From NCBI GenBank assembly GCA_032433765.1, contig JAVIAB010000073.1:65466205-65530204 (forward strand): DNA of 64,000 nt, in the 5' to 3' direction. Positions 4,070-50,643 of this stretch are shown one piece after another (the first letter of the stretch is position 1; every line of letters starts with the position of its first letter). Source of the DNA: Megaustenia siamemsis (taxonomy: Eukaryota; Mollusca; Gastropoda; Stylommatophora; Ariophantidae). The notes beneath the pieces were generated by a model. That model did not search any database, was not told the DNA's origin, and saw only the letters and a program-made list of their open reading frames with translations. The position numbers were made by a program, and so were the translations under genes.

Positions 4070-7000
4070 TACACTTGCTACTCCATATCTATGTTTTCAC
4101 CTACTATGTCTAAGTCTTCACCTACTCCATATCTAAGACTTCACTTACTCCATGTCTAAGTCTTCACCTACTCCATGTCTAAGTCTTCACCTACTCCATA
4201 TCTAAGTCTTCACCTACTCCATATCTAAGTCTTCACCTACTCCATATCTAAGTCTTCACCTACTCCATATCTAAGACTTCACTTACTCCATGTCTAAGTC
4301 TTCACCTACTCCATATCTAAGTCTTCACCTACTCCATATCTAAGTCTTCACCTACTCCATATCTAAGTCTTCACCTACTCCATATCTAAGTCTTCACCTA
4401 CTCCATATCTAAGACTTCACTTACTCCATGTCTAAGTCTTCACCTACTCCATATCTAAGTCTTCACCTACTCCATATCTAAGTCTTCACCTACTCCATGT
4501 TTAAGTCTTCATCTACTCCATATCTAAGTCTTCACCTACTCCATATCTAAGTCTTCACCTACTCCATATCTAAGTCTTCACCTACTCCATATCTAAGTCT
4601 TCACCTACTCCATATCTAAGACTTCACTTACTCCATGTCTAAGTCTTCACCTACTCCATATCTAAGTCTTCACCTACTCCATATCTAAGTCTTCACCTAC
4701 TCCATGTTTAAGTCTTCATCTACTCCATATCTAAGTCTTCACCTACTCCATGTCTAAGTCTTCACCTACTCCATATCTAAGTCTTCACCTACTCCATGTC
4801 TAAGTCTTCACTTACTCCATGTCTAAGTCTTCACCTATTCCATGTCTAAGTCTTCACCTACTCCATATCTAAGTCTTCACCTACTCCATGTTTAAGTCTT
4901 CGCCTACTCCATATCTAAGTCTTCACCTACTCCATATCTAAGTCTTCACCTACTCCATATCTAAGTCTTCACCTACTCCATATCTAAGACTTCACTTACT
5001 CCATGTCTAAGTCTTCACCTACTCCATATCTAAGTCTTCACCTACTCCATATCTAAGTCTTCACCTACTCCATGTTTAAGTCTTCATCTACTCCATATCT
5101 AAGTCTTCACCTACTCCATGTCTAAGTCTTCACCTACTCCATATCTAAGTCTTCACCTACTCCATGTCTAAGTCTTCACCTAATCCATGTCTAAGTCTTC
5201 ACCTACTCCATATCTAAGTCTTCACCTACTCCATATCTAAGTCTTCATCTACTCCATGTTTAAGTCTTCACCTACTCCATATCTAAGTCTTCACCTACTC
5301 CATATCTAAGTCTTCACCTACTCCATGTCTAAGTCTTCATCTACTCCATATCTAAGTCTTCACCTACTCCATATCTAAGTCTTCACCTACTCCATATCTA
5401 AGTCTTCACCTACTCCATGTCTAAGTCTTCATCTACTCCATATCTAAGTCTTCACCTACTCCATATCTAAGTCTTCACCTACTCCATATTTAAGTCTTCA
5501 CCTACTCCATATCTAAGTCTTCACCTACTCCATATCTAAGTCTTCACCTACTCCATGTCTAAGTCTTCACCTACTCCATATCTAAGTCTTCACCTACTCC
5601 ATATCTAAGTCTTCACCTACTCCATATCTAAGTCTTCACCTACTCCATATCTAAGTCTTCACCTACTCCATATCTAAGTCTTCACCTACTCCATATCTAA
5701 GTCTTCATCTACTCCATATCTAAGTCTTCACCTACTCCATATCTAAGTCTTCACCTACTCCATGTCTAAGTCTTCATCTACTCCATGTCTAAGTCTTCAT
5801 CTACTCCATATCTAAGTCTTCACCTACTCCATATCTAAGTCTTCACCTACTCCATATCTAAGACTTCACTTACTCCATGTCTAAGTCTTCACCTACTCCA
5901 TATCTAAGTCTTCACCTACTCCATATCTAAGTCTTCACCTACTCCATGTCTAAGTCTTCACCTAATCCATGTCTAAGTCTTCACCTACTCCATATCTAAG
6001 TCTTCACCTACTCCATATCTAAGTCTTCATCTACTCCATGTTTAAGTCTTCACCTACTCCATATCTAAGTCTTCACCTACTCCATATCTAAGTCTTCACC
6101 TACTCTATATCTAAGTCTTCACCTACTCCATATCTAAGTCTTCATCTACTCCATATCTAAGTCTTCACCTACTCCATATCTAAGTCTTCACCTACTCCAT
6201 GTCTAAGTCTTCATCTACTCCATGTCTAAGTCTTCACCTACTCCATGTCTAAGTCTTCACCTACTCCATGTCTAAGTCTTCACCTACTCCATATCTAAGT
6301 CTTCACCTACTCCATGTTTAAGTCTTCATCTACTCCATGTCTAAGTCTTCACCTACTCCATGTCTAAGTCTTCACCTACTCCATGTCTAAGTCTTCACCT
6401 ACTCCATATCTAAGTCTTCACCTACTCCATGTCTAAGTCTTCACCTACTCCATATCTAAGTCTTCACCTACTCCATGTCTAAGTCTTCATCTACTCCATA
6501 TCTAAGTCTTCACCTACTCCATATCTAAGTCTTCACCTACTCCATATCTAAGTCTTCACCTACTCCATGTCTAAGTCTTCACCTACTCCATGTCTAAGTC
6601 TTCACCTAATCCATGTCTAAGTCTTCACCTACTCCATATCTAAGTCTTCACCTACTCCATATCTAAATCTTCATCTACTCCATGTTTAAGTCTTCACCTA
6701 CTCCATATCTAAGTCTTCACCTACTCCATATCTAAGTCTTCACCTACTCCATGTCTAAGTCTTCATCTACTCCATATCTAAGTCTTCACCTACTCCATAT
6801 CTAAGTCTTCACCTACTCCATATCTAAGTCTTCACCTACTCCATGTCTAAGTCTTCATCTACTCCATATCTAAGTCTTCATCCACTCCATGTCTAAGTCT
6901 TCACCTACTCCATGTCTAAGTCTTCACCTACTCCATATCTAAGTCTTCACCTACTCCATGTTTAAGTCTTCACCTACTCCATGTCTAAGTCTTCACCTAC

Positions 7001-8130
7001 TCCATGTCTAAGTCTTCACCTACTCCATGTCTAAGTCTTCACCTACTCCATGTCTAAGTCTTCACCTACTCCATATCTAAGTCTTCACCTACTCCATGTC
7101 TAAGTCTTCACCTACTCCATATCTAAGTCTTCACCTACTCCATGTCTAAGTCTTCACCTACTCCATATCTAAGTCTTCACCTACTCCATGTTTAAGTCTT
7201 CATCTACTCCATGTCTATGTCTTCATCTACTCCATATCTAAGTCTTCACCTACTCCATGTCTAAGTCTTCACCTACTCCATGTCTAAGTCTTCACCTACT
7301 CCATGTTTAAGTCTTCATCTACTCCATGTCTATGTCTTCATCTACTCCATATCTAAGTCTTCACCTACTCCATATCTAAGTCTTCATCTACTCCATGTTT
7401 AAGTCTTCACCTACTCCATATCTAAGTCTTCACCTACTCCATATCTAAGTCTTCATCTACTCCATGTTTAAGTCTTCACCTACTCCATATCTAAGTCTTC
7501 ATCTACTCCATGTTTAAGTCTTCACCTACTCCATATCTAAGTCTTCACCTACTCCATATCTAAGTCTTCATCTACTCCATGTTTAAGTCTTCACCTACTC
7601 CATATCTAAGTCTTCATCTACTCCATATCTAAGTCTTCATCTACTCCATATCTAAGTCTTCACCTACTCCATGTCTAAGTCTTCACCTACTCCATATCTA
7701 AGTCTTCACCTACTCCATATCTAAGTCTTCATCTACTCCATGTTTAAGTCTTCACCTACTCCATATCTAAGTCTTCACCTACTCCATATCTAAGTCTTCA
7801 CCTACTCCATATCTAAGTCTTCACCTACTCCATATCTAAGTCTTCATCTACTCCATATCTAAGTCTTCACCTACTCCATATCTAAGTCTTCACCTACTCC
7901 ATATCTAAGTCTTCACCTACTCCATGTCTAAGTCTTCACCTACTCCATGTCTAAGTCTTCACCTACTCCATGTTTAAGTCTTCACCTACTCCATATCTAA
8001 GTCTTCACCTACTCCATATCTAAGTCTTCACCTACTCCATATCTAAGTCTTCACCTACTCCATGTCTAAGTCTTCACCTACTCCATGTTTAAGTCTTCAC
8101 CTACTCCATGTCTAAGACTTCACCTATTCT
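4070..8130. repeat. 23-bp satellite array, about 175 copies
   Basis: About 4.05 kb of tandem 23-bp units, CTACTCCATATCTAAGTC plus TTCAC. Variants recur at fixed positions: ATATC/ATGTC/ATGTT, CACC/CATC and occasional AGACTTCACTTACTC units. Longer blocks of several units recur with the same variant order, for example the AGACTTCACTTACTC unit followed by ATGTC, which indicates block-wise (higher-order) amplification. There is no coding content. It lies upstream of the visible protease exons. Confidence 0.97.
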
Positions 8131-11279: not shown

Positions 11280-12434
11280 CCCTCTATCTCTTCGTCCCTC
11301 AATTTTTCCAGTTGTTACAATATATTCCAGTTGTTTTCTTCTCATTACATGGCCAAAAATGATTATTGTTTCTTCCTAATATTGGAAATTAGCTCTCTTT
11401 TTGCTTTGACCTCTCTCAGAACATCTTCATTACTCTTCTTAGCTGTCCATGGTACTCTCAACATTCTTCTGCAAAACCACATTTCTACAGACTCCAGTGA
11501 TTTTCTTGTCTGTTGTCCTATTGTCCATGATTCGCATCCATATGTTAAGACTGGCTCTACATAACATTTAAGAACTCTTTTTCTTGTTTCTATTGTCAAA
11601 AATGGATTGCATAGTATTTTTCTCATTTTTTGGAAAGCTGCTTTTGCCTGAGCCATTCTGCATCTCACCTCCTTTGTACATCTTCCGTCTGAGGTTAACA
11701 AAGTTCCCAAATATTTAAATTCATTTACCTGTTTAAATATTGTTCCACCTGTCTTTATTTTGCACTGAGGTGATGTCTTTTTCTTTGTTGTTACCATTAC
11801 CTCTGTCTTTTTGTTGTTAAGGTTGAGTCCTTTATTTTTGCTTTCTTTCACTATAATGTCCAACATTTCTTGTAACTCATTTTCACTCTCAACGATTAAG
11901 ACTGTATCATCAACCTACCTTTGATTATTTATATTATGACCTCCAATTGTTATTCCAGGCATGTCCCTTATGGATCTTAAAATAATCTCACTATAAATAT
12001 TAAACAAATCTGGTGACAGCACACAACCTTGTCTAACACCCTGTTTTATTTGTTGAAACATTCCCAATTGGTTTCCAGTTCTTATGGCCGCTGTTTGTTG
12101 CCAGTACATATTCTTTATTATTCTTAGATCTTTGCTGTCTACGTTTATGCTTTCTAAAATTTTGATTAGTTCTTGGTGCTTTACTTTGTCAAATGCCTTG
12201 GTGTTATCTATGAATCATAGGTATAGATCTGTTTTCACCTCTGTGGCTCTTTCTACTAAAGATCTTATGATATAAATGGCATTGCTTGTTCATTTATCTC
12301 TAACAAAACCACACTGTTCATCACTAATGTTTGAATTGATTTTGTTTCGCACTCTTCGCATGATGATTCTTAGTAATATCTTAGTCATATGACTCATAAG
12401 GCTTACTGTGCGATGATCATAGCATTCAATCGCA
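11280..12434 (-). pseudogene. LINE B1 RT, C-terminal two thirds
   Basis: In minus-strand order this runs from the palm core toward the C-terminus. [13 protein letters not shown] (motif B) is intact in the 64-residue frame 11915-12109. The YADD site is destroyed by a stop near 11920. The 11363-11866 frame (KYLGTLLTSDGRCT, TYGCESWTI, WFCRRMLRVPWTAKK) is intact. The FIDxTKAFD segment near 12200 carries substitutions and stops. The upstream end is interrupted at 12434 by the palindrome, whose 6-bp target duplication ATCGCA lies in the LINE codons after KKSGAI. Confidence 0.85.
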
Positions 12435-12960
12435 AGTAGTATACCAGGAAGGATTTGGATATTATTGTGGCGCTAAATTAACAAAGATATATAGGGCGGC
12501 GCGCGGCGCGCCTTTCACGCGAAATGTACACGAGAGACAAGGGGAGTTAACCATGACCGCGCGTGTCCGGATGTTGACCTCTAGTCTCGGTGACCCCGGA
12601 AGTGACCTGCTTATGTCTGGTGTGTGCGGACTTTGGCGTTCTTTATGTACTTGCTCGATAGTGATAGGTTAGTAGATTATACAACATCAATGAAAAACAA
12701 TAGCATTAAATATAAAACAGAAAGCAAAAGATATACTTTATTCTTTTATTATCTCAATAGGTGTATAACATACAGTGGATATTATATAACATTACAAACA
12801 TATTTAGTACACTGAGTAAATATATAGTACAGGGATAACATTTATTATAGCTATGTAGTTGGGTGTCTGCTTAGCGTTGTGTCATAAATGAATCATAAGG
12901 GGTGAAACAGTTAGAGATTCTCGGTTAGTCTAAACTGGTAGTGTAAAGAGTTAAATATCT
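12435..12960 (+). repeat. left outer terminal segment of palindrome
   Basis: Outer end of the left arm, matched by 20387-20912 on the opposite strand. About 60 bases in is a very CpG-rich stretch (GGCGGCGCGCGGCGCGCC, 12496-12513), followed at about 12560 by a second GC-rich patch. The rest of the element is AT-rich. A 63-codon frame at 12624-12815 is identical to its mirror at 20532-20723, but its low complexity and inward orientation give no support for a gene. Confidence 0.75.
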
Positions 12961-13029
12961 AGAGGCGTAGTCGAGACGTTATCATCAGCTACCTTTCTTT
13001 TTATATAGAAATAGGAAAGAGCATTTCTT

Positions 13030-13128
13030 GTTTGACTGTAGGAAAATATGGAATTATTTAAGACTTTGAAACCTACATTTTCCCCACCCTTAGCCTTAAA
13101 CCCATTAGCTCTACTTAGCCCCCCTAAA

Positions 13129-13167
<39 letters not shown>

Positions 13168-13570
13168 TTCCATCCTAGATTTCCCTCCATTGAAACACTT
13201 ACTCATTCTCTGCATTTATCCCTATCATCGCGCCTTCTTTCTCCCTCTCTCTCTCTCTCTCTTTCTTCCCTATCCTCTCTAAGACTTCTAACCTATCAGT
13301 CCACCCTCCGCCTCTCCCTTTAGCTCCCCCGCCCTCCCTCATATTTTTAGCGTCCCTCCTATTGTAACACTTGATTATTCTCATCATTTATACCTAGCAT
13401 CTCGCCTTCTTTCTCATAGGCTTCTCTCTCTCGCTCTCTCTCTTCTAACCCCTACTAGACTTCTCTCCTACCATTCCACCTTTCTTCCTCTCTCTCTCTC
13501 TCTCTCTCTCTCTTTACCTCGCCTAGCGTTCCACCTTCATTCGTATTTTTACCTTACCGCCAGTGTAACA
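13030..13570 (+). repeat. (CT)n-rich ~185-bp repeats, left arm
   Basis: About three degenerate units, each with a (CT)n tract, a CTTCTAACC/TACCATTCCACC-type segment and a TGTAACAC end. The mirror is at 19800-20330, where the GA tracts have different lengths. Open frames here (13048-13323 and antisense) come from the Ser/Leu-coding CT runs and are not genes. Confidence 0.8.
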
Positions 13571-13949
13571 CATTAATAACATTGAATATCAATTACAAAA
13601 AGACTTGAAATATCTACTTTTTAAAGAACCAATAAGATAAACATATGAAAAAACGAAGGAATAATACACTCGACAAGGCTTAACATACATACTTTATACA
13701 TATTACCATTAATACAATCGAGTAGGCTTTTATTGATAACCTACCACATCGTTATGAGATAAGAGAAAAACAGAAGAAGAAAAATTCAACTTACACCGTA
13801 AAATATTCCACTACAACACAGACCGCTAGACTGAACAGTACTATGAAAATAAACTTCCGTGAATCAATCGCGCTTATAACACGAAGTTTCACATGCGACT
13901 AGTTTAAATATAATCTGGTTTAATAAAAGTTGGACGACACTATTCCACC

Positions 13950-14110
13950 CTCGACTAACATCTAGGTTAACCAATCAGAGAAGAAGATTTCTATCGGACA
14001 CCCATCAACAAAATGACTGACCTTTAGATTAACCAATCAGAGAAGAGGATTTCTATTGGACACCCACCAACGAAATGACTGGACTCTGGATTAACTAATT
14101 AGAGAAGAGG
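13950..14110 (-). promoter_or_regulatory. three tandem CCAAT-box units, left arm
   Basis: Three repeats of about 65 bp each contain AACCAATCAGAGAAG or a close variant (about 13970, 14030 and 14095, the last weakened to AACTAATTAGAG). AACCAATCAG fits the NF-Y consensus RRCCAATCAG. A mirrored set lies at 19260-19410. The outward 81-codon frame lies directly next to it. Whether this drives transcription, and in which direction, is inference. Confidence 0.4.
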
Positions 14111-14344
14111 ATTACTGTTATCGTGATAATTGACCTCATTTTCCACTTGAAGTGCTGTCGAGTCTGACGCATGGGTTACTTTAAATCGATTCGGCCCCTG
14201 ATACAATCCACCTAGTGGGTCAATGGTGGGGGGAAATAATACAAGTGGCGAGTTACTTGAACGCGTTTTGACCCCTGATGCAATACCAGGAGTTCCATGA
14301 CAGTTATAAATAGTTGGATACAACGAGCAGGAAGTTATATCCAA
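14099..14344 (-). CDS. hypothetical 81-residue frame, left arm
   Basis: A minus-strand frame that reads outward, from the centre of the palindrome toward its left end. It is nearly identical to the right-arm frame 19027-19272 (two or so substitutions). It contains NCHGTPGIASG and IDPLGGLYQGPNRFKVT. I recognise no domain, membrane segment or signal peptide. Conservation between arms reflects arm identity and is not independent evidence of selection. It could be a fragment of a larger element protein. Confidence 0.25.
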   Translation of the reverse strand: MDITSCSLYPTIYNCHGTPGIASGVKTRSSNSPLVLFPPTIDPLGGLYQGPNRFKVTHASDSTALQVENEVNYHDNSNPLL

Positions 14345-14509
14345 GGTCCAAAATGTTAGACCAAATCACTAAGATTTTACCACCAGAACACACAAATTTA
14401 GGCTCACATTCAAAAAGTCGACCTTAAAACCATACAAATCTACTTCCATACTCATAAAAGTTAGACACATCAAACAGATAATTACTTCCAAACTCCAAAA
14501 AGTTAGAAC

Positions 14510-14700
14510 AAATCACGCCTCGATCGTTCTCTAACTTTGCCATGATCGTTCTTTAACACTGCCTCCAGCGTTCTTCGATCGTTCTCTAACATTACCTCGA
14601 GCGTTCTCTAACATTGCCTCGATCGTTCTCTAACATTACCTCGAGCGTTCTCTAACATTGCCACGATCGTTCTTTAACATTGCCTCCAGCGTTCTCTTCA
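14510..14700 (-). repeat. ~22-bp repeats bordering the polymerase fragment, left arm
   Basis: Tandem degenerate copies of a unit that reads AATGTTAGAGAACGATCGAG on the minus strand. They replace the 3' end of the polymerase frame; the last codons before the stop are already repeat sequence. The mirror is at 18680-18860. Confidence 0.85.
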
Positions 14701-15119
14701 CAAGTTTCGGAAGGGAACCATTTGTCGTACTGGGAGAAAAACTCGTTTACCCTATCCCTTTTAACGACCCCTTCTAATGATGACTCGCTGAGTGTCAAGT
14801 ACAGACTATCTATATCCATTTCACAGAGTTGAAAGTCGGACCTCTCTACGAATCTATCCAGGAAGTCATAGTAAATTTCCAACATTCGCAATTTGGCGTA
14901 CTGGTAGACGAAAAAACCAATCTGTGAAGGAAGATCCCACAGGATACTTCGTTTTCCAAGCGACACCTCGTACAGGTCTTCACCAATAGGCGTCATGGTT
15001 TTAAACGGGGGGTTATTTACCAACTTTGTTGTATTGGCCCCCTCTTTAACATAGGTCACGTTCACATGTTTCCCCAAATTCGTCAAGGTCTTCACATAGG
15101 CCGAGAAAAATATTACCAC
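14652..15119 (-). pseudogene. protein-primed DNA polymerase B fragment, left arm
   Basis: 155 residues covering roughly motif B to motif C of a protein-primed family B DNA polymerase, as in Polintons and related linear DNA viruses and plasmids. The start FSAYVKTLTN fits motif B, in which a Tyr-Gly pair is usual; here the Gly is Val. The middle has FFVYQYAKLRMLEIYYDFLD. Motif C reads MDIDSLYL, where DTDS is usual. Exonuclease, TPR and thumb regions are missing: minisatellite adjoins the 5' side and 22-bp repeats the 3' side. Both motif changes argue against activity. It reads outward from the palindrome centre. Confidence 0.75.
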
Positions 15120-15124
15120 CAGAT

Positions 15125-15770
15125 CACAAAAATGTAGGCAGAAACCTAGGAGGCAAGGGCAGAAACTTAGGAGACAAGGTCAGAAACCTAGGAGGCAAGG
15201 GCAAAAACCTAAGAGGCAAGGGCAGAAACCTAGGAGGCACGGGCAGAAACCTAAGAGGCAAGGGCAGAAATCTAAGAGGCAAAGACAGAAACCTAGGAGG
15301 AGGTCAGAAACCTAGGAGACAAGGACAGAAACCTAGGAGGCAAGGGCAGAAACCTAGGAGGCAAGGGCAGAAACCTAAGAGGCAAGGGCAGAAACCTAAG
15401 AGGCAAGGGCAGAAACCTAAGAGGCAAGGGCAGAAACCTAAGAGGCAAAGACAGAAACCTAGGAGGCAAGGTCAGAAACCTAGGAGGCAAGGGCAGAAAC
15501 CTAGGAGGCAAGGGCAGAAACCTAGGAGGCAAGGACAGAAACCTAGGAGGCAAGGGCAGAAACCTAGGAGGCAAGGGCAGAAACCTAAGAGGCAAGGCAG
15601 AAACCTAAGAGGCAAAGACAGAAACCTAGGAGGCAAGGTCAGAAACCTGGGAGGCAAGGGCAGAAACCTAGGAGGCAAGGACAGAAACCTAGGAGGCAAG
15701 GACAGAAACCTAGGAGGCAATGGCAGAAACCTAAGAGGCACGGACAGAAAACTAGGAAGCAAAGGCTGAA
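15125..15770 (-). repeat. ~21-bp minisatellite, left arm
   Basis: Around 30 copies of a unit reading CCTAGGAGGCAAGGGCAGAA on the plus strand, with AAGAGG and AAGGTC/AAGACA variants. The unit is mostly 21 bp, divisible by three, so it yields long artefact frames rich in Pro-Arg-Phe-Leu (15293-15595, 15472-15762). The mirror is at 17625-18240. It separates the polymerase fragment from the central repeats. Confidence 0.9.
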
Positions 15771-15779
15771 AAACACTCG

Positions 15780-16620
15780 TACTGCGATTTTTACCTATTA
15801 TGGCAATTTTATTATTGTTACCCCCCTTACCGTTTTTTGAGGGTTACGCCCATGAAATCGGTAAAAATTCGTAAATTTTCACTCTAGGCATACCCCAAAC
15901 TTTATTTTAGACATTCCCACACCAAAAATTAACTTAAAAATCACTTTTAGGATTTTACCCCCTTATCATTTTTTGAGGGTTGCGCCCATGGAATTGATAA
16001 AAATCGTAAATTTACCACGTAGGCTTACCTAAAACGTTATTTTAGACATCCCCACACCAAAAATTTACTTAAAAATCACTTTTGAAATTGTTACCCCCTT
16101 ATCATTTTTGAGGGTTACGCCCCTGAATTCGACGAAAATCGTAAATTTTCACTCTAGGCATACCCCAAACTTTATTTTAGACATTTCCACACCAAAAATT
16201 AACTTAAAAATCACTTTTGAAATTGTAACCCCCTTACCATTTTTGAGGGTTACGCCCCTGAAATCGATAAAAATCGTTAATTTATCACGTAGGCTTACCT
16301 AAAACTTTATTTTAGACATCCCCATACCACAAATTAACTTAAAAATCACTTTTGAAATTGTAACCCCCCTTACCATTTTTGAGGGTTACGCCCCTGAAAT
16401 CGATAAAAATCGTTAATTTACCACTTATGCTTACCTAAAACTTTATTTTAGACATCCCCACACCAAAAATTTACTTAAAAATCACTTTTGAAATTGTAAC
16501 CCCCCTTACCATTTTTGAGGGTTACGCCCCTGAAATCGATAAAAAATTGAAATTTAACCTCAAGGCATACCTCCCACATAATATTTGACACCCCTACATA
16601 TCAAATTCCAACAAAAAAAT
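15780..16620 (-). repeat. ~170-190-bp tandem repeats, inner left arm
   Basis: About five units, each with CCCTTA(C/T)CATTTTTGAGGG, TTACGCCCCTGAAATCGA, a TAGGC(A/T)TACC segment, TTTATTTTAGACAT and CACCAAAAAT. The mirror copies fill 16780-17600, where one unit appears to be shuffled or duplicated relative to the left arm. No coding potential is apparent. Confidence 0.85.
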
Positions 16621-16653
16621 AACAAAAAGCTAGTAGTATGGGTGGCTGTGAAC

Positions 16654-16736
16654 CCATTCTAAAAGTGCATGTGCATGTACCGAAATACAATAGATTTGAC
16701 ACAAAAACCGCACGAGAAGTAGTATATTCGGGTAGT
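16654..16736. other. central 83-bp loop of palindrome
   Basis: Single-copy sequence between GGGTGGCTGTGAAC (ends 16653) and its complement GTTCACAGCCACCC (starts 16737). It contains a short GTGCATGTGCATGTAC motif. This is the only part of the element without a mirrored partner. If the element arose by strand switching, this is the former switch point. Confidence 0.85.
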
Positions 16737-16779
16737 GTTCACAGCCACCCATATTACTAGCTTTTTGATGTTTTTTTTT

Positions 16780-17600
16780 AATTGGAATTTGATATGTAGG
16801 GGTGTCAAATATTATGTGGGAGGTATGCCTTGAGGTTAAATTTCAATTTTTTATCGATTTCAGGGGCGTAACCCTCAAAAATGGTAAGGGGGGTTACAAT
16901 TTCAAAAGTGATTTTTAAGTTAATTTTTGGTCTGGGGATGTCTAAAATAAAGTTTTAGGTAAACCTACGTGATAAATTAAAGATTTTTATCGATTTCAGT
17001 GGCGTAACCCTCAAAAATGGTAAGGGGGTTACAATTTCAAAAGTGATTTTTAAGTTAATTTTTGGTGTGGGGATGTCTAAAATAAAGTTTGGGTATGCCT
17101 AGAGTGAAAATTTACGATTTTCGTCGAATTCAGGGGCGTAACCCTCAAAAATGATAAAGGGGTAACAATTTCAAAAGTGATTTTTAAGTAAATTTTTGGT
17201 GTGGGGATGTCTAAAATAAAGTTTGGGTATGCCTAGAGTGAAAATTTACGATTTTCGTCGAATTCAGGGGCGTAACCCTCAAAAATGATAAAGGGGTAAC
17301 AATTTCAAAAGTGATTTTTAAGTAAATTTTTGGTGTGGGGATGTCTAAAATAAAGTTTTAGGTAAGCCTACGTGGTAAATTTACGATTTTTATCAATTCC
17401 ATGGGCGTAACCCTCAAAAAATGATAAGGGGGTAAAATCCTAAAAGTGATTTTTAAGTTAATTTTTGGTGTGGGGATGTCTAAAATAAAGTTTGGGGTAT
17501 GCCTAGAGTGAAAATTTACGAATTTTTACCGATTTCATGGGCGTAACCCTCAAAAAACGGTAAGGGGGGTAACAATAATAAAATTGCCATCATAGGTAAA
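16780..17600 (+). repeat. ~170-190-bp tandem repeats, inner right arm
   Basis: Mirror of 15780-16620. The segment with AAGTTTGGGTATGCCTAGAG occurs in two consecutive units (17090 and 17221), an arrangement that differs from the left arm. This is one of the few structural differences between arms. Confidence 0.85.
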
Positions 17601-17624
17601 AATCGCAGTACGAGTGTTTTTCAG

Positions 17625-18240
17625 CCTTTGCTTCCTAGTTTTCTGTCCATGCCTCTTAGGTTTCTGCCATTGCCTCCTAGGTTTCTGTCCTTGCCTCCTA
17701 GGTTTCTGTCCTTGCCTCCTAGGTTTCTGCCCTTGCCTCCCAGGTTTCTGACCTTGCCTCCTAGGTTTCTGTCTTTGCCTCTTAGGTTTCTGCCCTTGCC
17801 TCTTAGGTTTCTGCCCTTGCCTCCTAGGTTTCTGCCCTTGCCTCCTAGGTTTCTGTCCTTGCCTCCTAGGTTTCTGCCCTTACCTCCTAGGTTTCTGCCC
17901 TTGCCTCCTAGGTTTCTGACCTTGCCTCCTAGGTTTCTGTCTTTGCCTCTTAGGTTTCTGCCCTTGCCTCTTAGGTTTCTGCCCTTGCCTCTTAGATTTT
18001 TGCCCTTGCCTCCTAGGTTTCTGCCCTTGCCTCCTAGGTTTCTGTCCTTGCCTCCTAGGTTTCTGACCTTGCCTCCTAGGTTTCTGTCTTTGCCTCTTAG
18101 ATTTCTGCCCTTGCCTCTTAGGTTTCTGCCCGTGCCTCCTAGGTTTCTGCCCTTGCCTCTTAGGTTTCTGCCCTTGCCTCCTAGGTTTCTGACCTTGTCT
18201 CCTAGGTTTCTGACCTTGCCTCCTAGGTTTCTGCCTACAT
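17625..18240 (+). repeat. ~21-bp minisatellite, right arm
   Basis: Mirror of 15125-15770, units reading TTGCCTCCTAGGTTTCTGCC. The 206-codon frame 17628-18248 is produced by the repeat and is not a gene. Unit order and count differ slightly from the left arm. Confidence 0.9.
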
Positions 18241-18252
18241 TTTTGTGATCTG

Positions 18253-18680
18253 GTGGTAATATTTTTCTCGGCCTATGTGAAGACCTTGACGAATTTGGGG
18301 AAACATGTGAACGTGACCTATGTTAAAGAGGGGGCCAATACAACAAAGTTGGTAAATAACCCCCCGTTTAAAACCATGACGCCTATTGGTGAAGACCTGT
18401 ACGAGGTGTCGCTTGGAAAAGGAAGTATCCTGTGGGATCTTCCTTCACAGATTGGTTTTTTCGTCTACCAGTACGCCAAATTGCGAATGTTGGAATTTTA
18501 CTATGACTTCCTGGATAGATTCGTAGAGAGGTCCGACTTTCAACTCTGTGAAATGGATATAGATAGTCTGTACTTGACACTCGCGAGTCATCATTAGAAG
18601 GGGTCGTTAAAAGGGATAGGGTAAACGAGTTTTTCTCCCAGTACGACAAATGGTTCCCTTCCGAAACTTGTGAAGAGAAC
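18253..18680 (+). pseudogene. protein-primed DNA polymerase B fragment, right arm
   Basis: Mirror of the left-arm fragment, with the same motif B and motif C changes. The frame closes at 18597 after SLYLTL because one base is missing relative to the left arm (ACTCGCGAG here; ACTCAGCGAG there). The homologous sequence continues to about 18680 in another frame. The arms have therefore begun to diverge after the palindrome formed, and neither encodes a complete enzyme. Confidence 0.75.
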
Positions 18681-18860
18681 GCTGGAGGCAATGTTAAAGA
18701 ACGATCGTGGCAATGTTAGAGAACGCTCGAGGTAATGTTAGAGAACGATCGAGGCAATGTTAGAGAACGCTCGAGGTAATGTTAGAGAACGATCGAAGAA
18801 CGCTGGAGGCAGTGTTAAAGAACGATCATGGCAATGTTAGAGAACGATCGAGGCGTGATT
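18680..18860 (+). repeat. ~22-bp repeats bordering the polymerase fragment, right arm
   Basis: Mirror of 14510-14700, with GAACGATCGAGG and GAACGCTCGAGG variants alternating. Confidence 0.85.
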
Positions 18861-19026
18861 TGTTCTAACTTTTTGGAGTTTGGAAGTAATTATCTGTTTG
18901 ATGTGTCTAACTTTTATGAGTATGGAAGTAGATTTGTATGGTTTTAAGGTCGACTTTTTGAATGTGAGCCTAAATTTGTGTGTTCTGGTGGTAAAATCTT
19001 AGTGATTAGGTCTAACATTTTGGACC

Positions 19027-19272
19027 TTGGATATAACTTTCTGCTCGTTGTATCCAACTATTTATAACTGTCATGGAACTCCTGGTATTGCATCAGGGGT
19101 CAAAACGCGTTCAAGTAACCCGCCACTTGTATTATTTCCCCCCACCATTGACCCGCTAGGTGGATTGTATCAGGGGCCGAATCGATTTAAAGTAACCCAT
19201 GCGTCAGACTCGACAGCACTTCAAGTGGAAAATGAGGTCAATTATCACGATAACAGTAATCCTCTTCTCTGA
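19027..19272 (+). CDS. hypothetical 81-residue frame, right arm
   Basis: Right-arm partner of 14099-14344, reading outward. It keeps the same start and stop and differs by about two residues (TFCSLYP; SSNPPL). The stop immediately precedes the CCAAT repeats at 19260-19410. No recognised domain. Confidence 0.25.
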   Translation: MDITFCSLYPTIYNCHGTPGIASGVKTRSSNPPLVLFPPTIDPLGGLYQGPNRFKVTHASDSTALQVENEVNYHDNSNPLL

Positions 19273-19410
19273 TTAGTTAATCCAGAGTCCAGTCATTTCG
19301 TTGGTGGGTGTCCAATAGAAATCCTCTTCTCTGATTGGTTAATCTAAAGGTCAGTCATTTTGTTGATGGGTGTCCGATAGAAATCTTCTTCTCTGATTGG
19401 TTAACCTAGA
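19260..19410 (+). promoter_or_regulatory. tandem CCAAT-box units, right arm
   Basis: CTCTGATTGGTTAA twice and CTCTGATTAGTTAA once, spaced about 65 bp. This is the mirror of the left-arm set. The first unit has lost the CCAAT core in both arms, so that loss predates or was copied into both arms. Confidence 0.4.
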
Positions 19411-20912
19411 TGTTAGTCTAGGGTGGAATAGTGTCGTCCAACTTTTATTAAACCAGATTATATTTAAACTAGTCGCATGTGAAACTTCGTGTTATAAGCG
19501 CGATTGATTCACGGAAGTTTATTTTCATAGTACTGTTCAGTCTAGCGGTCTGTGTTGTAGTGGAATATTTTACGGTGTAAGTTGAATTTTTTTTTCTGTT
19601 TTTCTCTTATCTCATAACGATGTGGTAGGTTATCAATAAAAGCCTACTCGATTGTATTAATGGTAATATGTATAAAGTATGTATGTTAAGCCTTGTCGAG
19701 TGTATTATTCCTTCGTTTTTTCATATGTTTATCTTATTGGTTCTTTAAAAAGTAGATATTTCAAGTCTTTTTGTAATTGATATTCAATGTTATTAATGTG
19801 TTACACTGGCGGTAAGGTAAAAATACGAATGAAGGTGGAACGCTAGGCGAGGTAATGAGAGAGAGAGAGAGAGGAAGAAAGGTGGAATGGTAGGAGAGAA
19901 GTCTAGTAGGGGTTAGAAGAGAGAGAGCGAGAGAGAGAAGCCTATGAGAAAGAAGGCGAGATGCTAGGTATAAATGATGAGAATAATCAAGTGTTACAAT
20001 AGGAGGGACGCTAAAAATATGAGGGAGGGCGGGGGAGCTAAAGGGAGAGGCGGAGGGTGGACTGATAGGTTAGAAGTCTAAGAGAGGATAGGGGAGAAAG
20101 AGAGAGAGAGAGAGAAGGAAGGCGCGATGATAGGGATAAATGGAGAGAATGAGTAAGTGTTTCAATGGAGGGAAATCTAGGCTGGAATAGTAGAGAGAGA
20201 GTGAGAGAGGGGAGAGATTTAGGGGGGCTAAGTAGAGCTAATGGGTTTAAGGCTAAGGGTGGGGAAAATGTAGGTTTCAAAGTCTTAAATAATTCCATAT
20301 TTTCCTACAGTCAAACAAGAAATGCTCTTTCCTATTTTTATATAAAAAGAAAGGTAGCTGATGATAACGTCTCGACTACGCCTCTAGATATTTAACTCTT
20401 TACACTACCAGTTTAGACTAACCGAGAATCTCTAACTGTTTCACCCCTTATGATTCATTTATGACACAACGCTAAGCAGACACCCAACTACATAGCTATA
20501 AATAAATGTTATCCCTGTACTATATATTTACTTAGTGTACTAAATATGTTTGTAATGTTATATAATATCCACTGTATGTTATACACCTATTGAGATAATA
20601 AAAGAATAAAGTATATCTTTTGCTTTCTGTTTTATATTTAATGCTATTGTTTTTCATTGATGTTGTATAATCTACTAACCTATCACTATCGAGCAAGTAC
20701 ATAAAGAACGCCAAAGTCCGCACACACCAGACATAAGCAGGTCACTTCCGGGGTCACCGAGACTAGAGGTCAACATCCGGACACGCGCGGTCATGGTTAA
20801 CTCCCCTTGTCTCTCGTGTACATTTCGCGTGAAAGGCGCGCCGCGCGCCGCCCTATATATCTTTGTTAATTTAGCGCCACAATAATATCCAAATCCTTCC
20901 TGGTATACTACT

Positions 20913-20918
20913 ATCGCA
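20913..20918. other. right target duplication of the palindrome (ATCGCA)
   Basis: Direct repeat of 12429-12434. The empty site in LINE B2 reads TTCAATCGCACCCG once. This shows a clean transpositional insertion with a 6-bp staggered cut. Confidence 0.9.
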
Positions 20919-21276
20919 CCCGATTTCTTTGGTAGGGCTATGAATATTAATTTGAGCATGTCGTCTGGTATATATCCGCTGTTGTAGATATCATTCAATA
21001 TTTTTGTTATTATTTATATTCCAAAATCACCCATGGCTTCAATCTCTTCTTTAGTTATATTATCTGGTCCAGGAGCTTTGCCTGCTTTCATATTGCTCAA
21101 GGCGTCTTCCACTTCATCTCTTAGTATTTCTGGTTCTTCTCCATTATCCTTAATATTTACTTCCGTTCGTTCATCATTATAAAGATCTTTAATGTATTCT
21201 GTCCATCGTTCCCTTAAGTTTTCTTGATCAATCAACAGTTGTTCTTCCTTTGATCTTAGGCATCCATTTTTTGATT
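20919..21276 (-). pseudogene. LINE B1 5' part
   Basis: Minus-strand RT N-terminal region: ERWTEYIKDLYND, then MKAGKAPGPDNITKEE (21014-21235), and in an adjoining frame YNSGYIPDDMLK and LPKKSGAI up to the palindrome. It carries at least one in-frame stop. It ends at the 5' truncation point 21276, beside the target duplication. Confidence 0.8.
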
Positions 21277-21286
21277 AATAACATAT

Positions 21287-21740
21287 ACTAATAATATAAT
21301 ATCAGGAGTGACATTTACAAATAATATAATGTCAGGAGTGAAATCTACTAATAATATAATGTCAGGAGTGAAATATACTCATTATATTATGTCAAGGAAT
21401 GACATCTACTAATAAAATAGTGTCAAGGAGTGTCATCTACTCATAATCTGACATCAGGATTGATATCTACTGCTTATGTAACGCTATGAATAACATCTAC
21501 TATGTAACATTATAAATGACATCTACTAACTTTGTAACATTATAAATAACATCTACTAACTATGTAACATTATAAATGACATCTACTAACTATGTAACAT
21601 TATAAATGACATCTACTAACTATGTAACATTATAAATGACATCTACTAACTATGTAACATTATAAATGACATCTACTAACTATGTAACATTATAAATGAC
21701 ATCTACTAACCATGTAACATTATAAATGACATCTACTAAT
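21287..21740. repeat. 30-bp minisatellite, degenerate then regular
   Basis: 21287-21440 has degenerate units with TAATATAATGTCAGGAGTGA. From 21480 regular 30-bp units TATGTAACATTATAAATGAC + ATCTACTAAC repeat about eight times. Sequence elements are shared with 8806-9513, so this is the other half of an array split by LINE B1. Confidence 0.9.
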
Positions 21741-26396: not shown

Positions 26397-27837
26397 ATCA
26401 TCATCAAGTACCGGGCCTACTGGCGTAGGTGATCATGTCTCTCCACTACCTTCGATCTCGGCAGCTATTTATCATTTCTGTTGCTGACCGTCTGCCAAGC
26501 CATTCGCTTAAGCTGTCTGTTATTTTTTCTCTTTGCTTCCCTCTATCTCTTCGTCCCTCAATTTTTCCAGTTGTTACAATATATTCCAGTTGTTCTCTCC
26601 TCATTACATGGCCAAAAAATGATGATTGTCTCTTCCTAATATTGGAAATTAGTTCTCTTTTTGCTTTGACCTCTCTCAGAACATGTTCATTACTCTTCTT
26701 AGCTGTCCATGATACTCTCAACATTCTTCTGCAAAACCACATTTCTACAGACTCCAGTGATTTTCTTGTCTGATGTCCTATTGTCCATGATTCGCATCCA
26801 TATGTTAAAACTAGCTCTACATAACATTTAAGAACTCTTTTTCTTGTTTCTATTGTCAAAAATGGATTGCATAGTATCTTCCTCATTTTTTGGAAAGCTG
26901 CTTTTGCCTGAGCCATTCTGCATCTCACCTCCTTTGTACATCTTCCGTCTGAGGTTAACAAAGTTACCAAATATTTAAATGCATTTACCTGTTTTAATAT
27001 TGTTCCAGTAGTCTTTATTTTGCACTGAGGTGATGTCTTTTTCTTTGTTGTTACCATTACCTCTGTCTTTTTGTTGTTAAGGTTGAGTCCTTTATTTTTG
27101 CTTTCTTTCACTATAATGTCCAACATTTATTGTAACTCATTTTCACTCTTAACGATTAAGACTGTATCATCGGCATACCTTAGATTATTTATATTATGAC
27201 CTCCAATTGTTATTCCAGGCATGTCCCTTATGGATCTTAAAATAATCTCACTATAAACATTAAACAAATCTGGTGACAGCACACAACCTTGTCTAACACC
27301 CTGTTTTATTTGTTGAAACATTCCCAATTGGTTTCCAGTTCTTATAACCGCTGTTTGTTGCCAGTACATGTTCTTTATTATTCTTAGATCTTTGCTGTCT
27401 ACGTTTATGCTTCCTAAAATTTTGATTATTTCTTGGTGCTTTACTTTGTCAAATGCCTTGGTGTAATCTATGAAACATAGGTATATATCTGTTTTCACCT
27501 CTATGGCTCTTTCTACTAAAGATCTTATGATATAAATGGCATTGCTTGTTCCTTTATCTCTAACAAAACCACACTGTTCATCACTAATTTCTGGACTGAT
27601 TTTGTTTCGCACTCTTCGCATGATGATTCTTAGTAATATCTTAGTCATATGACTCATAAGGCTTATTGTGCGATGATCATCGCATTCAATCGCACCCGAT
27701 TTCTTTGGTAGGGCTATGAATATTGATTTGAGCATGTCGTCTGGTATATATCCGCTGTTGTAGATATCATTCAATATTTTTGTTATTATTTCTATTCCAA
27801 AATCACCCATGACTTCAATCTCTTCTTTAGTTATAAC
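26397..27837 (-). mobile_element. LINE family B copy 2
   Basis: A 5'-truncated non-LTR retrotransposon within the 34-bp array. The flanks CTGAGACCAGAAC (26384-26396) and CTGAAACCAGAAC (27838-27850) are a 13-bp duplication with one mismatch. The frame runs from ITKEEIE through motif A FIDYTKAFD, motif [14 protein letters not shown] and motif C RYADDTVLI (27127-27852). One in-frame stop follows at 27127-27129, a GAA to TAA change relative to copy 1. It then continues to the C-terminus (26446-27126). This is the best preserved family B RT here, inactivated mainly by that stop and by truncation. Confidence 0.92.
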
Positions 27838-28332
27838 CTGAAACCAGAACAATACAGCTATATTATAAAGGCTGAGACCAGAACAATACAGCTATATTAT
27901 AAAGGCTGAGACCAGAACAATACAGCTTAATTATAAAGGCTGAGACCAGAACAATACAGCTATATTATAAAGGCTGAAACCAGAACAATACAGCTATATT
28001 ATAAAGGCTGAGACCAAAACAATACAGCTATAGCATAAGGGCTGAGACCAGAACAATACAGCTATATTATAAGGGCTGAGACCAGAACAATGCAGCTATA
28101 TTATAAGGGCTGAGACCAGAACAATGCAGCTATATTATAAGGGCTGAGACCAGAACAATGCAGCTATATTATAAGGGCTGAGACCAGAACAATGCAGCTA
28201 TATTATAAGGGCTGAGACCAGAACAATGCAGCTATATTATAAGGATTGAGAGCAGATCAGAATAGCTATTTGAAAAGGATTGAGAGCAGACCAGGATAGC
28301 TATATACGGATTGAGAGCAGAACAGGACATCT
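27838..28332. repeat. 34-bp minisatellite, segment 2
   Basis: Regular units GGCTGAGACCAGAACAATAC + AGCTATATTATAAA (34 bp). They shift at about 28240 to the GGATTGAGAGCAGA variant that dominates segment 3. Confidence 0.93.
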
Positions 28333-44560: not shown

Positions 44561-44650
44561 CAAACTATGAATATATGCGATATGTAGTTACTAACATTTG
44601 AGACTGCCAGAGAGACTTCAAAAGTGGATTAGCAACGGCAACTCAAAAAT

Positions 44651-47600
44651 GTAAGAACATGTGGCACAATAGCAGCCAGACAATTAAAATTATTGAGGGA
44701 ATGTGAGCAATGCATTATGTAAGAACATGTGGCACAATACCAGCCAGACAATTAAAATTATTGAGGGAATGTGAGCAATGCATTATGTAAGAACATGTGG
44801 CACAATAGCAGCCAGACAATTAAAATTATTGAGGGAATGTGAGCAATGCATTATGTAAAAACATGTGGCACAATAGCAGCCAGACAATTAAAATTATTGA
44901 GGGAATGTGAGCAATGCATTATGTAAGAACATGTGGCACAATAGCAGCCAGACAATTAAAATTATTGAGGGAATGTGAGCAATGCATTATGTAAGAACAT
45001 GTGGCACAATAGCAGCCAGACAATTAAAATTATTGAGGGAATGTGAGCAATGCATTATGTAAGAACATGTGGCACAATAGCAGCCAGACAATTAAAATTA
45101 TTGAGGGAATGTGAGCAATGCATTATGTAAGAACATGTGGCACAATAGCAGCCAGACAATTAAAATTATTGAGGGAATGTGAGCAATGCATTATGTAAGA
45201 ACATGTGGCACAATAGCAGCCAGACAATTAAAATTATTGAGGGAATGTGAGCAATGCATTATGTAAGAACATGTGGCACAATAGCAGCCAGACAATTAAA
45301 ATTATTGAGGGAATGTGAGCAATGCATTATGTAAGAACATGTGGCACAATAGCAGCCAGACAATTAAAATTATTGAGGGAATGTGAGCAATGCATTATGT
45401 AAGAACATGTGGCACAATAGCAGCCAGACAATTAAAATTATTGAGGGAATGTGAGCAATGCATTATGTAAGAACATGTGGCACAATAGCAGCCAGACAAT
45501 TAAAATTATTGAGGGAATGTGAGCAATGCATTATGTAAAAACATGTGGCACAATACCAGCCAGACAATTAAAATTATTGAGGGAATGTGAGCAATGCATT
45601 ATGTAAGAACATGTGGCACAATACCAGCCAGACAATTAAAATTATTGAGGGAATGTGAGCAATGCATTATGTAAGAACATGTGGCACAATAGCAGCCAGA
45701 CAATTAAAATTATTGAGGGAATGTGAGCAATGCATTATGTAAGAACATGTGGCACAATAGCAGCCAGACAATTAAAATTATTGAGGGAATGTGAGCAATG
45801 CATTATGTAAGAACATGTGGCACAATACCAGCCAGACAATTAAAATTATTGAGGGAATGTGAGCAATGCATTATGTAAGAACATGTGGCACAATACCAGC
45901 CAGACAATTAAAATTATTGAGGGAATGTGAGCAATGCATTATGTAAGAACATGTGGCACAATACCAGCCAGACAATTAAAATTATTGAGGGAATGTGAGC
46001 AATGCATTATGTAAGAACATGTGGCACAATACCAGCCAGACAATTAAAATTATTGAGGGAATGTGAGCAATGCATTATGTAAGAACATGTGGCACAATAC
46101 CAGCCAGACAATTAAAATTATTGAGGGAATGTGAGCAATGCATTATGTAAGAACATGTGGCACAATACCAGCCAGACAATTAAAATTATTGAGGGAATGT
46201 GAGCAATGCATTATGTAAGAACATGTGGCACAATAGCAGCCAGACAATTAAAATTATTGAGGGAATGTGAGCAATGCATTATGTAAGAACATGTGGCACA
46301 ATAGCAGCCAGACAATTAAAATTATTGAGGGAATGTGAGCAATGCATTATGTAAGAACATGTGGCACAATACCAGCCAGACAATTAAAATTATTGAGGGA
46401 ATGTGAGCAATGCATTATGTAAGAACATGTGGCACAATAGCAGCCAGACAATTAAAATTATTGAGGGAATGTGAGCAATGCATTATGTAAGAACATGTGG
46501 CACAATAGCAGCCAGACAATTAAAATTATTGAGGGAATGTGAGCAATGCATTATGTAAGAACATGTGGCACAATACCAGCCAGACAATTAAAATTATTGA
46601 GGGAATGTGAGCAATGCATTATGTAAGAACATGTGGCACAATACCAGCCAGACAATTAAAATTATTGAGGGAATGTGAGCAATGCATTATGTAAGAACAT
46701 GTGGCACAATACCAGCCAGACAATTAAAATTATTGAGGGAATGTGAGCAATGCATTATGTAAGAACATGTGGCACAATACCAGCCAGACAATTAAAATTA
46801 TTGAGGGAATGTGAGCAATGCATTATGTAAGAACATGTGGCACAATACCAGCCAGACAATTAAAATTATTGAGGGAATGTGAGCAATGCATTATGTAAGA
46901 ACATGTGGCACAATACCAGCCAGACAATTAAAATTATTGAGGGAATGTGAGCAATGCATTATGTAAGAACATGTGGCACAATAGCAGCCAGACAATTAAA
47001 ATTATTGAGGGAATGTGAGCAATGCATTATGTAAGAACATGTGGCACAATAGCAGCCAGACAATTAAAATTATTGAGGGAATGTGAGCAATGCATTATGT
47101 AAGAACATGTGGCACAATAGCAGCCAGACAATTAAAATTATTGAGGGAATGTGAGCAATGCATTATGTAAGAACATGTGGCACAATAGCAGCCAGACAAT
47201 TAAAATTATTGAGGGAATGTGAGCAATGCATTATGTAAGAACATGTGGCACAATAGCAGCCAGACAATTAAAATTATTGAGGGAATGTGAGCAATGCATT
47301 ATGTAAGAACATGTGGCACAATACCAGCCAGACAATTAAAATTATTGAGGGAATGTGAGCAATGCATTATGTAAAAACATGTGGCACAATACCAGCCAGA
47401 CAATTAAAATTATTGAGGGAATGTGAGCAATGCATTATGTAAGAACATGTGGCACAATACCAGCCAGACAATTAAAATTATTGAGGGAATGTGAGCAATG
47501 CATTATGTAAAAACATGTGGCACAATACCAGCCAGACAATTAAAATTATTGAGGGAATGTGAGCAATGCATTATGTAAGAACATGTGGCACAATACCAGC

Positions 47601-50600: not shown

Positions 50601-50643
50601 TAAAATTATTGAGGGAATGTGAGCAATGCATTATGTAAAAACA
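44651..50643. repeat. 68-bp satellite array, about 88 copies
   Basis: A 5993-bp head-to-tail array of a 68-bp unit, starting GTAAGAACATGTGGCACAAT and ending AATGCATTAT. Copies are nearly identical except at two sites: GTAAGAAC/GTAAAAAC and AATAGCAG/AATACCAG. AGCAG dominates the first third, and ACCAG with many AAAAC units dominates the last 1.5 kb. The identity indicates recent amplification by unequal exchange. It has no open frame of note. Confidence 0.98.

Follow-up and report, generated by a model that had tools for sequence, protein, structure and literature searches.

Palindromic, probably Polinton-derived elements with a mirrored DNA polymerase B gene in the genome of the gastropod Megaustenia siamemsis

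A stretch of 64,000 nucleotides from Megaustenia siamemsis (assembly GCA_032433765.1, contig JAVIAB010000073.1, positions 65,466,205 to 65,530,204), hereafter the window, contains an element of 8,478 bp (window positions 12435-20912) whose two strands are near-identical, apart from an 83-nt loop at its centre. This element belongs to a family of integrated palindromes that resemble Polinton/Maverick elements in their ends, in their 6-bp target-site duplications (TSDs) and in the type of their family B DNA polymerase (PolB), and we propose to call them palindromic Polinton-derived elements with mirrored PolB. In our opinion, they are probably integrated self-complementary PolB replicons of Polinton descent, which would replicate by a snap-back, or hairpin, route and be inserted by a Polinton integrase acting in trans. 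All of our results come from one host assembly of 2.59 Gb in 155 contigs.

The window element and its family

An original prediction, made from the letters of the window alone, described two arms of 4,219 and 4,176 bp mirrored around the loop, and the sequence confirms this. The arms differ by 81 mismatches in 4,191 aligned columns (98.1% identity) and by 13 indel events; most of the differences lie in microsatellites and in the repeat-rich centre, and within a unique stretch the divergence is 0.7%. The termini of the element are AGTAGTATACC and GGTATACTACT, with (AGT)2 as the end motif. The hexamer ATCGCA borders the element on both sides. When joined with a single ATCGCA, the flanks are 96.5% identical to another copy of a long interspersed nuclear element (LINE) in the window, along 541 bp that run across the junction without a break. 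Such a match, which also bears out the duplication and the empty site reported in the original prediction, indicates that the 8.5-kb unit was inserted into a LINE with a 6-bp duplication.

A search of the assembly with the 412-bp terminus (best 40 of 4,282 candidates scored) returned 42 matches at 21 places, including the window; all of them were fetched and all hold such elements. Two-armed palindromes make up 19 of these 21 places and one-armed copies the other two; the palindromes are mostly 6-12 kb long, with arms of about 3-6 kb. Perfect 6-bp TSDs flank 18 of the 21 copies and all 18 are different, so that a check proposed in the original prediction came out positive. Five of the six bases agree at two more copies (L009 and the copy on contig C143), and L022 has lost its right end. 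The C143 copy (L031), one of the 19 two-armed elements, is interrupted by a nested element, a Polinton. Its right terminus reads (AGT)3 against (AGT)2 on the left; slippage in jumping-back priming might give such an extra AGT. Both one-armed copies, L026 (C73:3107713) and L055/L036 (on C103), have kept the central hairpin and perfect TSDs. The C103 copy retains 14 bp of its left end. L026 retains its right terminal repeat, and what it lacks is the portion of the right arm that would separate this repeat from the hairpin. We considered L026 as an ancestral non-palindromic form and rejected this idea because of the hairpin and of the limits of the missing part.

Fold-back reads are a known phenomenon. 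However, it is hardly credible that chimaeric reads of this kind created the palindromes as an assembly artefact: the symmetry does not extend into the flanks, TSDs surround the unit, the arms have diverged, the loop is single-copy, and 20 other places, 18 of them two-armed, hold such elements. A chance origin of 8.5 kb of mirrored sequence was rejected in view of the size of the mirror, the TSDs and the 20 sister places. We also rejected the insertion of two separate elements head to head, since each copy has one centre and one pair of TSDs.

What the copies have in common is a terminal part of about 0.4-0.66 kb, designated T1, while the middles of the arms vary by subfamily. We distinguish subfamilies A (the window copy, L009 and L024, with the relative L046), B (L012, L014, L022, L025, L029 and L032), C (L015, L020 and L021), D (L010, L016, L018 and L036) and E (L023 and L026-L028); L038 stands outside all five, and the subfamilies are mosaics. 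Copies of A, B, D and E have a 135-bp repeat array in common, and most of them also have a central hairpin of the form ACAAAAAGCT/AGTAGTA..GTGGCTGTGAAC-loop-GTTCACAGCCAC..TACTACT/AGCTTTTTGT, the loop often containing an additional AGTAGTAT. Exceptions are L023, whose stem differs, and L027, in which a motif scan found no central hairpin motif. The letters of the stem vary among subfamilies yet remain paired, as would be expected if one arm were copied into the other. The centre of subfamily C is different, likewise of the form AGCT/AGTCGTAT, and L045, described below, has yet another, so that at least three unlike centres exist. Two of these unlike centres (L015 3870-3960 and window 16622-16768) are both bordered by AGCT beside an outward-facing AGTnGTAT motif, possibly a resolution or priming site, or the relic of a mini-element.

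A second family, T2, has ends (AGTAGTAGTGGTGGCTG) resembling the central hairpin of the T1 family (L053 from 1197 onward, and L054). One T2 copy on C47 is flanked by the perfect duplication AACGGG, and the T2-related copy L045 shows a mirror of 98.8% identity along 7.7 kb; the blocks of its arms stand in a rearranged order relative to the T1 family. A search for T2 (40 full-length matches, the best 40 of 1,781 candidates) gave 13 pairs within 13 kb, all 13 inverted. Two such pairs, C51:111776390-111785518 and C51:112599908-112609036, have identical spacing and lie 0.8 Mb apart, perhaps as a result of segmental duplication.

The mirrored polymerase gene and canonical Polintons

Subfamily D carries PolB in each arm, with the 5' end of the gene facing the centre and the 3' end lying within the terminal repeat. 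Most of PolB is mirrored in both arms of three copies, where the frames are long or broken. The left arm of L018 has a PolB frame of 1,374 aa, and its right arm is a 99.9% mirror over 4,354 bp, excluding the PolB start. The gene is split in L010 (488, 230 and 611 aa in the left arm, 687 aa in the right) and in L016 (384 and 1,025 aa in the left arm, an open frame of 820 aa in the right). L015 has a C-terminal piece of PolB, and the window copy only a fragment, which represents another PolB lineage with 56% amino acid identity to L018. The 155-aa frame of this fragment includes the string MDIDSLYL, which we take to resemble polymerase motif C; on its own it had no Pfam match, and PDB sequences matched it at E 0.7-1 only.

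In Pfam, the L018 PolB yielded C2H2 zinc fingers, with DNA_pol_B_2 below the cut-off. For a predicted model of its catalytic part (mean pLDDT 79.8), the seven best PDB matches were all chains of phi29 DNA polymerase (E 3e-9 to 1.4e-6), albeit at modest TM-scores of 0.34-0.38. The model of the N-terminal part (mean pLDDT 74, pTM 0.38) weakly matched OTU domains and zinc fingers in the PDB (best E 0.006), and in a viral library this part matched a Drosophila adintovirus protein (E 9e-20), a MELD-virus PolB and densovirus PolBs. Searches of viral contigs with PolB found no relative. The best named relatives are gastropod proteins from Littorina (53%) and Nucella (52%). Overall, homology and predicted fold indicate that the palindromes of subfamily D carry a Polinton-type PolB. 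Purifying selection also seems to have acted on this PolB during its residence in palindromic elements, judging by a dN/dS of 0.21-0.22 between L018 and L010 over 561-566 codons.

The mirrored arrangement of PolB recurs in the genome. A search with its N-terminal part (best 121 of 7,127 candidates) gave 41 pairs within 10 kb, all 41 mirror-oriented; among the matches listed, 21 have an open frame that reaches 1,350 aa or more. The window fragment (best 150 of 5,277 candidates) gave 49 close pairs, again all mirror-oriented, and PolB pairs are often similarly spaced.

The Polinton nested in the C143 palindrome is a canonical one, encoding an integrase, a capsid protein and an ATPase, with a weak protease match below the cut-off. 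It has the same AGTAGTAT end as the palindromes and a 6-bp TSD, but its terminal repeat beyond AGTAGTAT gave no match to T1 at 1e-10. Thus, the Polinton-type ends claimed in the original prediction hold for the end motif and the duplication, while the remainder of the terminal inverted repeat (TIR) is not that of this canonical Polinton. The PolBs of the two are 41% identical in their aligned parts. Taken at the level of sequence, the palindromes are a lineage separate from this canonical Polinton, with a PolB of their own. The further proposal, that a Polinton-type integrase moved the whole palindrome as a unit, is supported, the integrase probably acting in trans; the architecture turned out to be that of a whole family and not of a single derivative.

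No integrase was located by coordinates in any of the 21 copies, except for that of the nested Polinton, among the best 118 of 2,017 integrase candidates. The frames of L018, L010, L016 and L015 are PolB or low-complexity, with no integrase (by eye, and by Pfam for L018), and no capsid, packaging ATPase or protease gene was recognised in them by eye. The palindromes are thus not autonomous Polintons, as the integrase and virion genes are missing from the frames examined. At the same time, the genome holds at least 127 ATPase and at least 118 integrase matches (the latter from the same search), mostly as open frames. Because no integrase of their own was recognised in the palindromes examined and Polinton integrases abound, integration in trans is the simplest reading.

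It is also important to consider a folded canonical Polinton. Among the 127 ATPase matches there is one pair within 60 kb, on C73 and in mirror orientation, i.e., 1 of 126 ATPase loci is palindromic, in a count that folds of this type omitting the ATPase would escape. This C73 element is about 96% identical to the C143 Polinton, its fetched arms are 99.87% mirrored over 3,074 bp, and the integrase frame is open in both. Its ends (71295815 and 71311600) fall within about 50 bp of the positions predicted if the whole left half had been mirrored. The junction contains a small hairpin, GCACGT-CAAGCC-ACGTGC (6-bp stem, 6-nt loop), next to which about 390 bp are missing on one side. The C143 Polinton has no long inverted repeat at the two sites joined here, only 7-9 bp matches. 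A junction of this kind would be left by a strand folding back and copying itself. Hence, this genome contains a fold-back product of a canonical Polinton, and such loci look rare; the mirrored state is the rule in the T1 family and rare in canonical Polintons.

Origin of the arm symmetry

In order to see when symmetry is made, mirrored differences between copies were compared with differences between the arms of one copy, using pieces outside large repeats; the repeat-rich parts of subfamily C were too variable for this. Mirrored differences in subfamily D amount to 32 of 1,351 and 11-12 of 1,803 columns between L010 and either L018 or L016, and to 0 and 3 columns in the same two pieces between L018 and L016, while the arms of each of these copies differ from one another by 0.00-0.30%. 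Between-copy differences found in mirrored form number 4-11 of 1,573 columns in A, and 0-4 of 891 and 0 of 485 columns in B. In E, they number 20-24 of 352 columns between L028 and the other copies, and 2 among those others. Within copies, the arms differ at 84 columns altogether; six of these differences reappear in a further copy, the bases being identical in five cases. Four of the five cases fall within columns 1-21 of the B piece, a part that is a TC microsatellite in the window. Differences between lineages are thus mirrored and those within copies nearly all private, which suggests that symmetry was mostly made before insertion and that the arms diverge afterwards.

Y-chromosome palindromes have arms homogenised by gene conversion, and the high arm identity of most of our copies would agree with such a process acting in the chromosome after insertion. 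We consider this explanation very improbable and rejected conversion as the main cause of symmetry: in subfamily B, arms differ by 0.64% within copies against 0.81% between copies (0.21 against 0.21% in the terminal part), a within-copy divergence so near the between-copy level that it speaks against conversion, and the arm differences are mostly private and accumulating.

How might such elements multiply? In the scenario that we favour, they would replicate outside the chromosome as linear DNA, with a terminal protein priming at the (AGT)2 ends. Strand displacement from one end of the palindrome would free a self-complementary strand, which would fold on the central hairpin into a hairpin duplex that is open on one side only. 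Synthesis primed on that side and running round the central hairpin (snap-back) would then rebuild the full palindrome, mostly erasing the differences between its arms. The integrase that inserts the finished linear palindrome would come from canonical Polintons residing in the same genome. With only a PolB remnant, the window copy would be non-autonomous, borrowing PolB from its relatives and the integrase from Polintons. The folded C73 Polinton means that a product of this kind is shown in a relative.

Two other explanations deserve to be weighed. The palindromes might be passive non-autonomous elements of the foldback type, whose inverted repeats were lengthened through recombination and the expansion of tandem repeats, were homogenised by exchange and are moved by the Polinton integrase, with no hairpin replication. 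There is a precedent in Galileo/Foldback, whose non-autonomous copies have long and dynamic TIRs (PMC3573991), and indeed much of the window arms consists of tandem repeats and the subfamilies are mosaics. Nevertheless, we find this unlikely, since the mirror takes in entire arms, with the central stem and unique stretches of PolB, the PolB differences between L018 and L010 point to purifying selection, and a canonical Polinton with a fold-back junction exists. Alternatively, each palindrome could be a rare snap-back product, akin to defective-interfering genomes, newly formed and then integrated without any propagating palindromic lineage. The canonical Polinton palindrome, which looks newly made, and the unlike centres (the common A/B/D/E type, that of C and that of L045) fit such a view. 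It is still less probable, in our judgement, than passive foldback growth, because most A, B, D and E copies have the same type of central hairpin and a repeat array in common, PolB pairs are recurrently mirror-oriented and often similarly spaced, and only a single ATPase locus of 126 was found to be palindromic.

Several observations weigh against the snap-back replicon scenario. Its replication and trans-integration steps are inferred from the sequence of one assembly. Resemblance to the window decided which copies were included (best 40 of 4,282 candidates), so their proportions are not genome-wide. Arms differ by 3.5% in L027 (352-column E piece) and, in the repeat-rich part, by 3.4% in L015 and 4.7% in L021, while those of L038 are 92.4% identical. 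One arm difference in subfamily A is common to the window copy and L009, which means that the renewal of symmetry is imperfect. As regards PolB, the matches listed include 52 unpaired ones for the window fragment and 39 for the N-terminal part; an unpaired match is not equal to a single gene, as the window's own second arm is also absent from the fragment search. Among the N-terminal pairs listed, 13 have a frame of 1,350 aa or more in one arm, and no pair has such frames in both. Beyond the main dN/dS estimate, short C-terminal parts compared with L015 give 0.15 and 0.20, the C-terminal part of L018 against L010 gives 1.5 on just 7 differences and is uninformative, and for L018 against L016 the ratio is undefined (3 differences). 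Finally, the mirroring of the C73 Polinton was read in its core arms and end positions only, and the sole match between its flanks is a 5-bp TTTGT in shifted position.

The snap-back replicon scenario can be carried one step further, to a claim that we hold more tentatively and put at slightly under even odds: a mobile lineage whose genome is permanently self-complementary, with two mirrored halves each bearing a polymerase gene, alternating between linear palindrome and hairpin and erasing arm differences during replication. If true, this replication style would be distinct from those of ordinary Polintons and of rolling-hairpin parvoviruses, and parasitic on the Polinton integrase. Moreover, if arms are identical at insertion, their divergence offers an insertion clock for each copy, like the long terminal repeats of retrotransposons.

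The features of the window are collected in Table 1. A LINE frame in the window has its best named relatives in Batillaria. Elsewhere in the window, a very homogeneous 6-kb array (44649-50643) holds 88 copies of a 68-bp unit with 99% matches, and a 4-kb array (4078-8126) holds 176 copies of a 23-bp unit and shows strong strand asymmetry, with a GC skew of about -0.7.

Table 1. Palindromic element, target and related features in the window
Feature	Position	Strand	Basis
Whole palindromic element	12435..20912		mirror alignment
Left TSD, ATCGCA	12429..12434		flank reading and empty site
Right TSD, ATCGCA	20913..20918		flank reading and empty site
T1 terminal part, common to family, starts (AGT)2	12435..13097	+	terminus comparisons
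T1 mirror copy, ends (ACT)2	20249..20912	-	inner limit from mirror mapping
Left arm, 4,219 bp	12435..16653	+	mirror alignment
Right arm, 4,176 bp, mirrors left arm	16737..20912	-	mirror alignment
155-aa open frame, PolB fragment	14652..15119	-	56% aa identity to L018 PolB
PolB fragment mirror copy, interrupted frame	18253..18719	+	coordinates from mirror mapping
21-bp tandem repeats, left arm	15137..15771		repeat scan
21-bp tandem repeats, right arm	17619..18235		repeat scan
135-bp tandem repeats, left arm	15814..16545		repeat scan
134/135-bp tandem repeats, right arm	16822..17576		repeat scan
Central hairpin, ACAAAAAGCT/AGTAGTAT..GTGGCTGTGAAC - loop - GTTCACAGCCAC..ATTACT/AGCTTTTT	16622..16768		related hairpins in most copies, several subfamilies
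83-nt loop, further AGTAGTAT at 16718	16654..16736		sequence reading
Target LINE, left of insertion; reverse-transcriptase match weak here	11363..12434	-	frames, domain search, empty site
Target, right of insertion; first part matches empty-site LINE copy	20919..21318	-	empty-site comparison
LINE copy with empty site, within reverse-transcriptase frame 27127-27852	27295..27835		empty-site comparison

Relation to known systems

By ends, TSD and type of polymerase the palindromes are kindred to Polintons, and by shape to foldback elements. Polinton/Maverick elements (polintoviruses, adintoviruses) are described as commonly having (AGT)2//(ACT)2 ends, which permit the jumping-back step of protein-primed replication, and 6-bp TSDs; such replication is expected for Mavericks, and particles have so far been unobserved (PMC8097293). 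The palindromes agree with them in these ends and duplications, and in a PolB whose N-terminal part matches an adintovirus protein and, weakly, OTU domains, and whose catalytic part matches phi29 polymerase. They differ in being mirrored over their whole length and in having only PolB or its remnant among the frames listed, with no recognised integrase, ATPase, protease or capsid genes there. No title or abstract on palindromic Polintons was found among the records listed by searches of open-licence literature. The fold-back Polinton of the same genome links the palindromes to Polintons.

Like Foldback/Galileo elements of the P superfamily, the palindromes consist mostly of very long, internally repetitive inverted repeats. 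For Galileo, 7-bp border repeats and TIRs ranging in length from 18 bp up to 1.25 kb are described, and its complete copies have a transposase (PMC3573991), whereas the palindromes have a 6-bp TSD, arms of about 3-6 kb and PolB in place of the transposase. No transposase frame was recognised among the frames of the window, L018, L010, L016 and L015.

Bidnaviruses, whose PolB and terminal repeats are thought to have been taken from Polintons (PMC4061559), set a precedent for a Polinton PolB inside a reduced genome. Unlike our elements, they are single-stranded and encapsidated, and no palindrome figures in the portion of that description used here (PMC4061559). The hairpin duplex proposed above resembles linear plasmids that terminate in a hairpin on one side and in a bound protein on the other, namely the pFOXC retroplasmids and pELF1 (PMC3035579, PMC6863802), in being a one-ended duplex with a terminal protein. 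However, these are plasmids, pFOXC uses a reverse transcriptase, and the hairpin form of the palindromes is a proposal.

A parallel in geometry is offered by the snapback genomes of the adeno-associated virus (AAV), which are self-complementary half-genomes, symmetric or looped, with helper-dependent replication (PMC8235507). Both the C73 Polinton and the T1 family likewise present a half-genome mirrored about a fold-back point. The AAV forms occur in virus particles, whereas the palindromes are integrated, form a family of many copies and have a PolB of their own. Snapback defective genomes are regarded as non-heritable by-products, a description that does not suit the T1 family, given its copy number, its mostly common centre and the selection on PolB between L018 and L010. 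Integrated palindromes with 6-bp duplications would be a footprint left in the genome by linear intermediates that displace strands and fold on themselves, and a palindromic family that is inherited together with its mirrored polymerase would show that the architecture of a defective genome can become a stable lifestyle.

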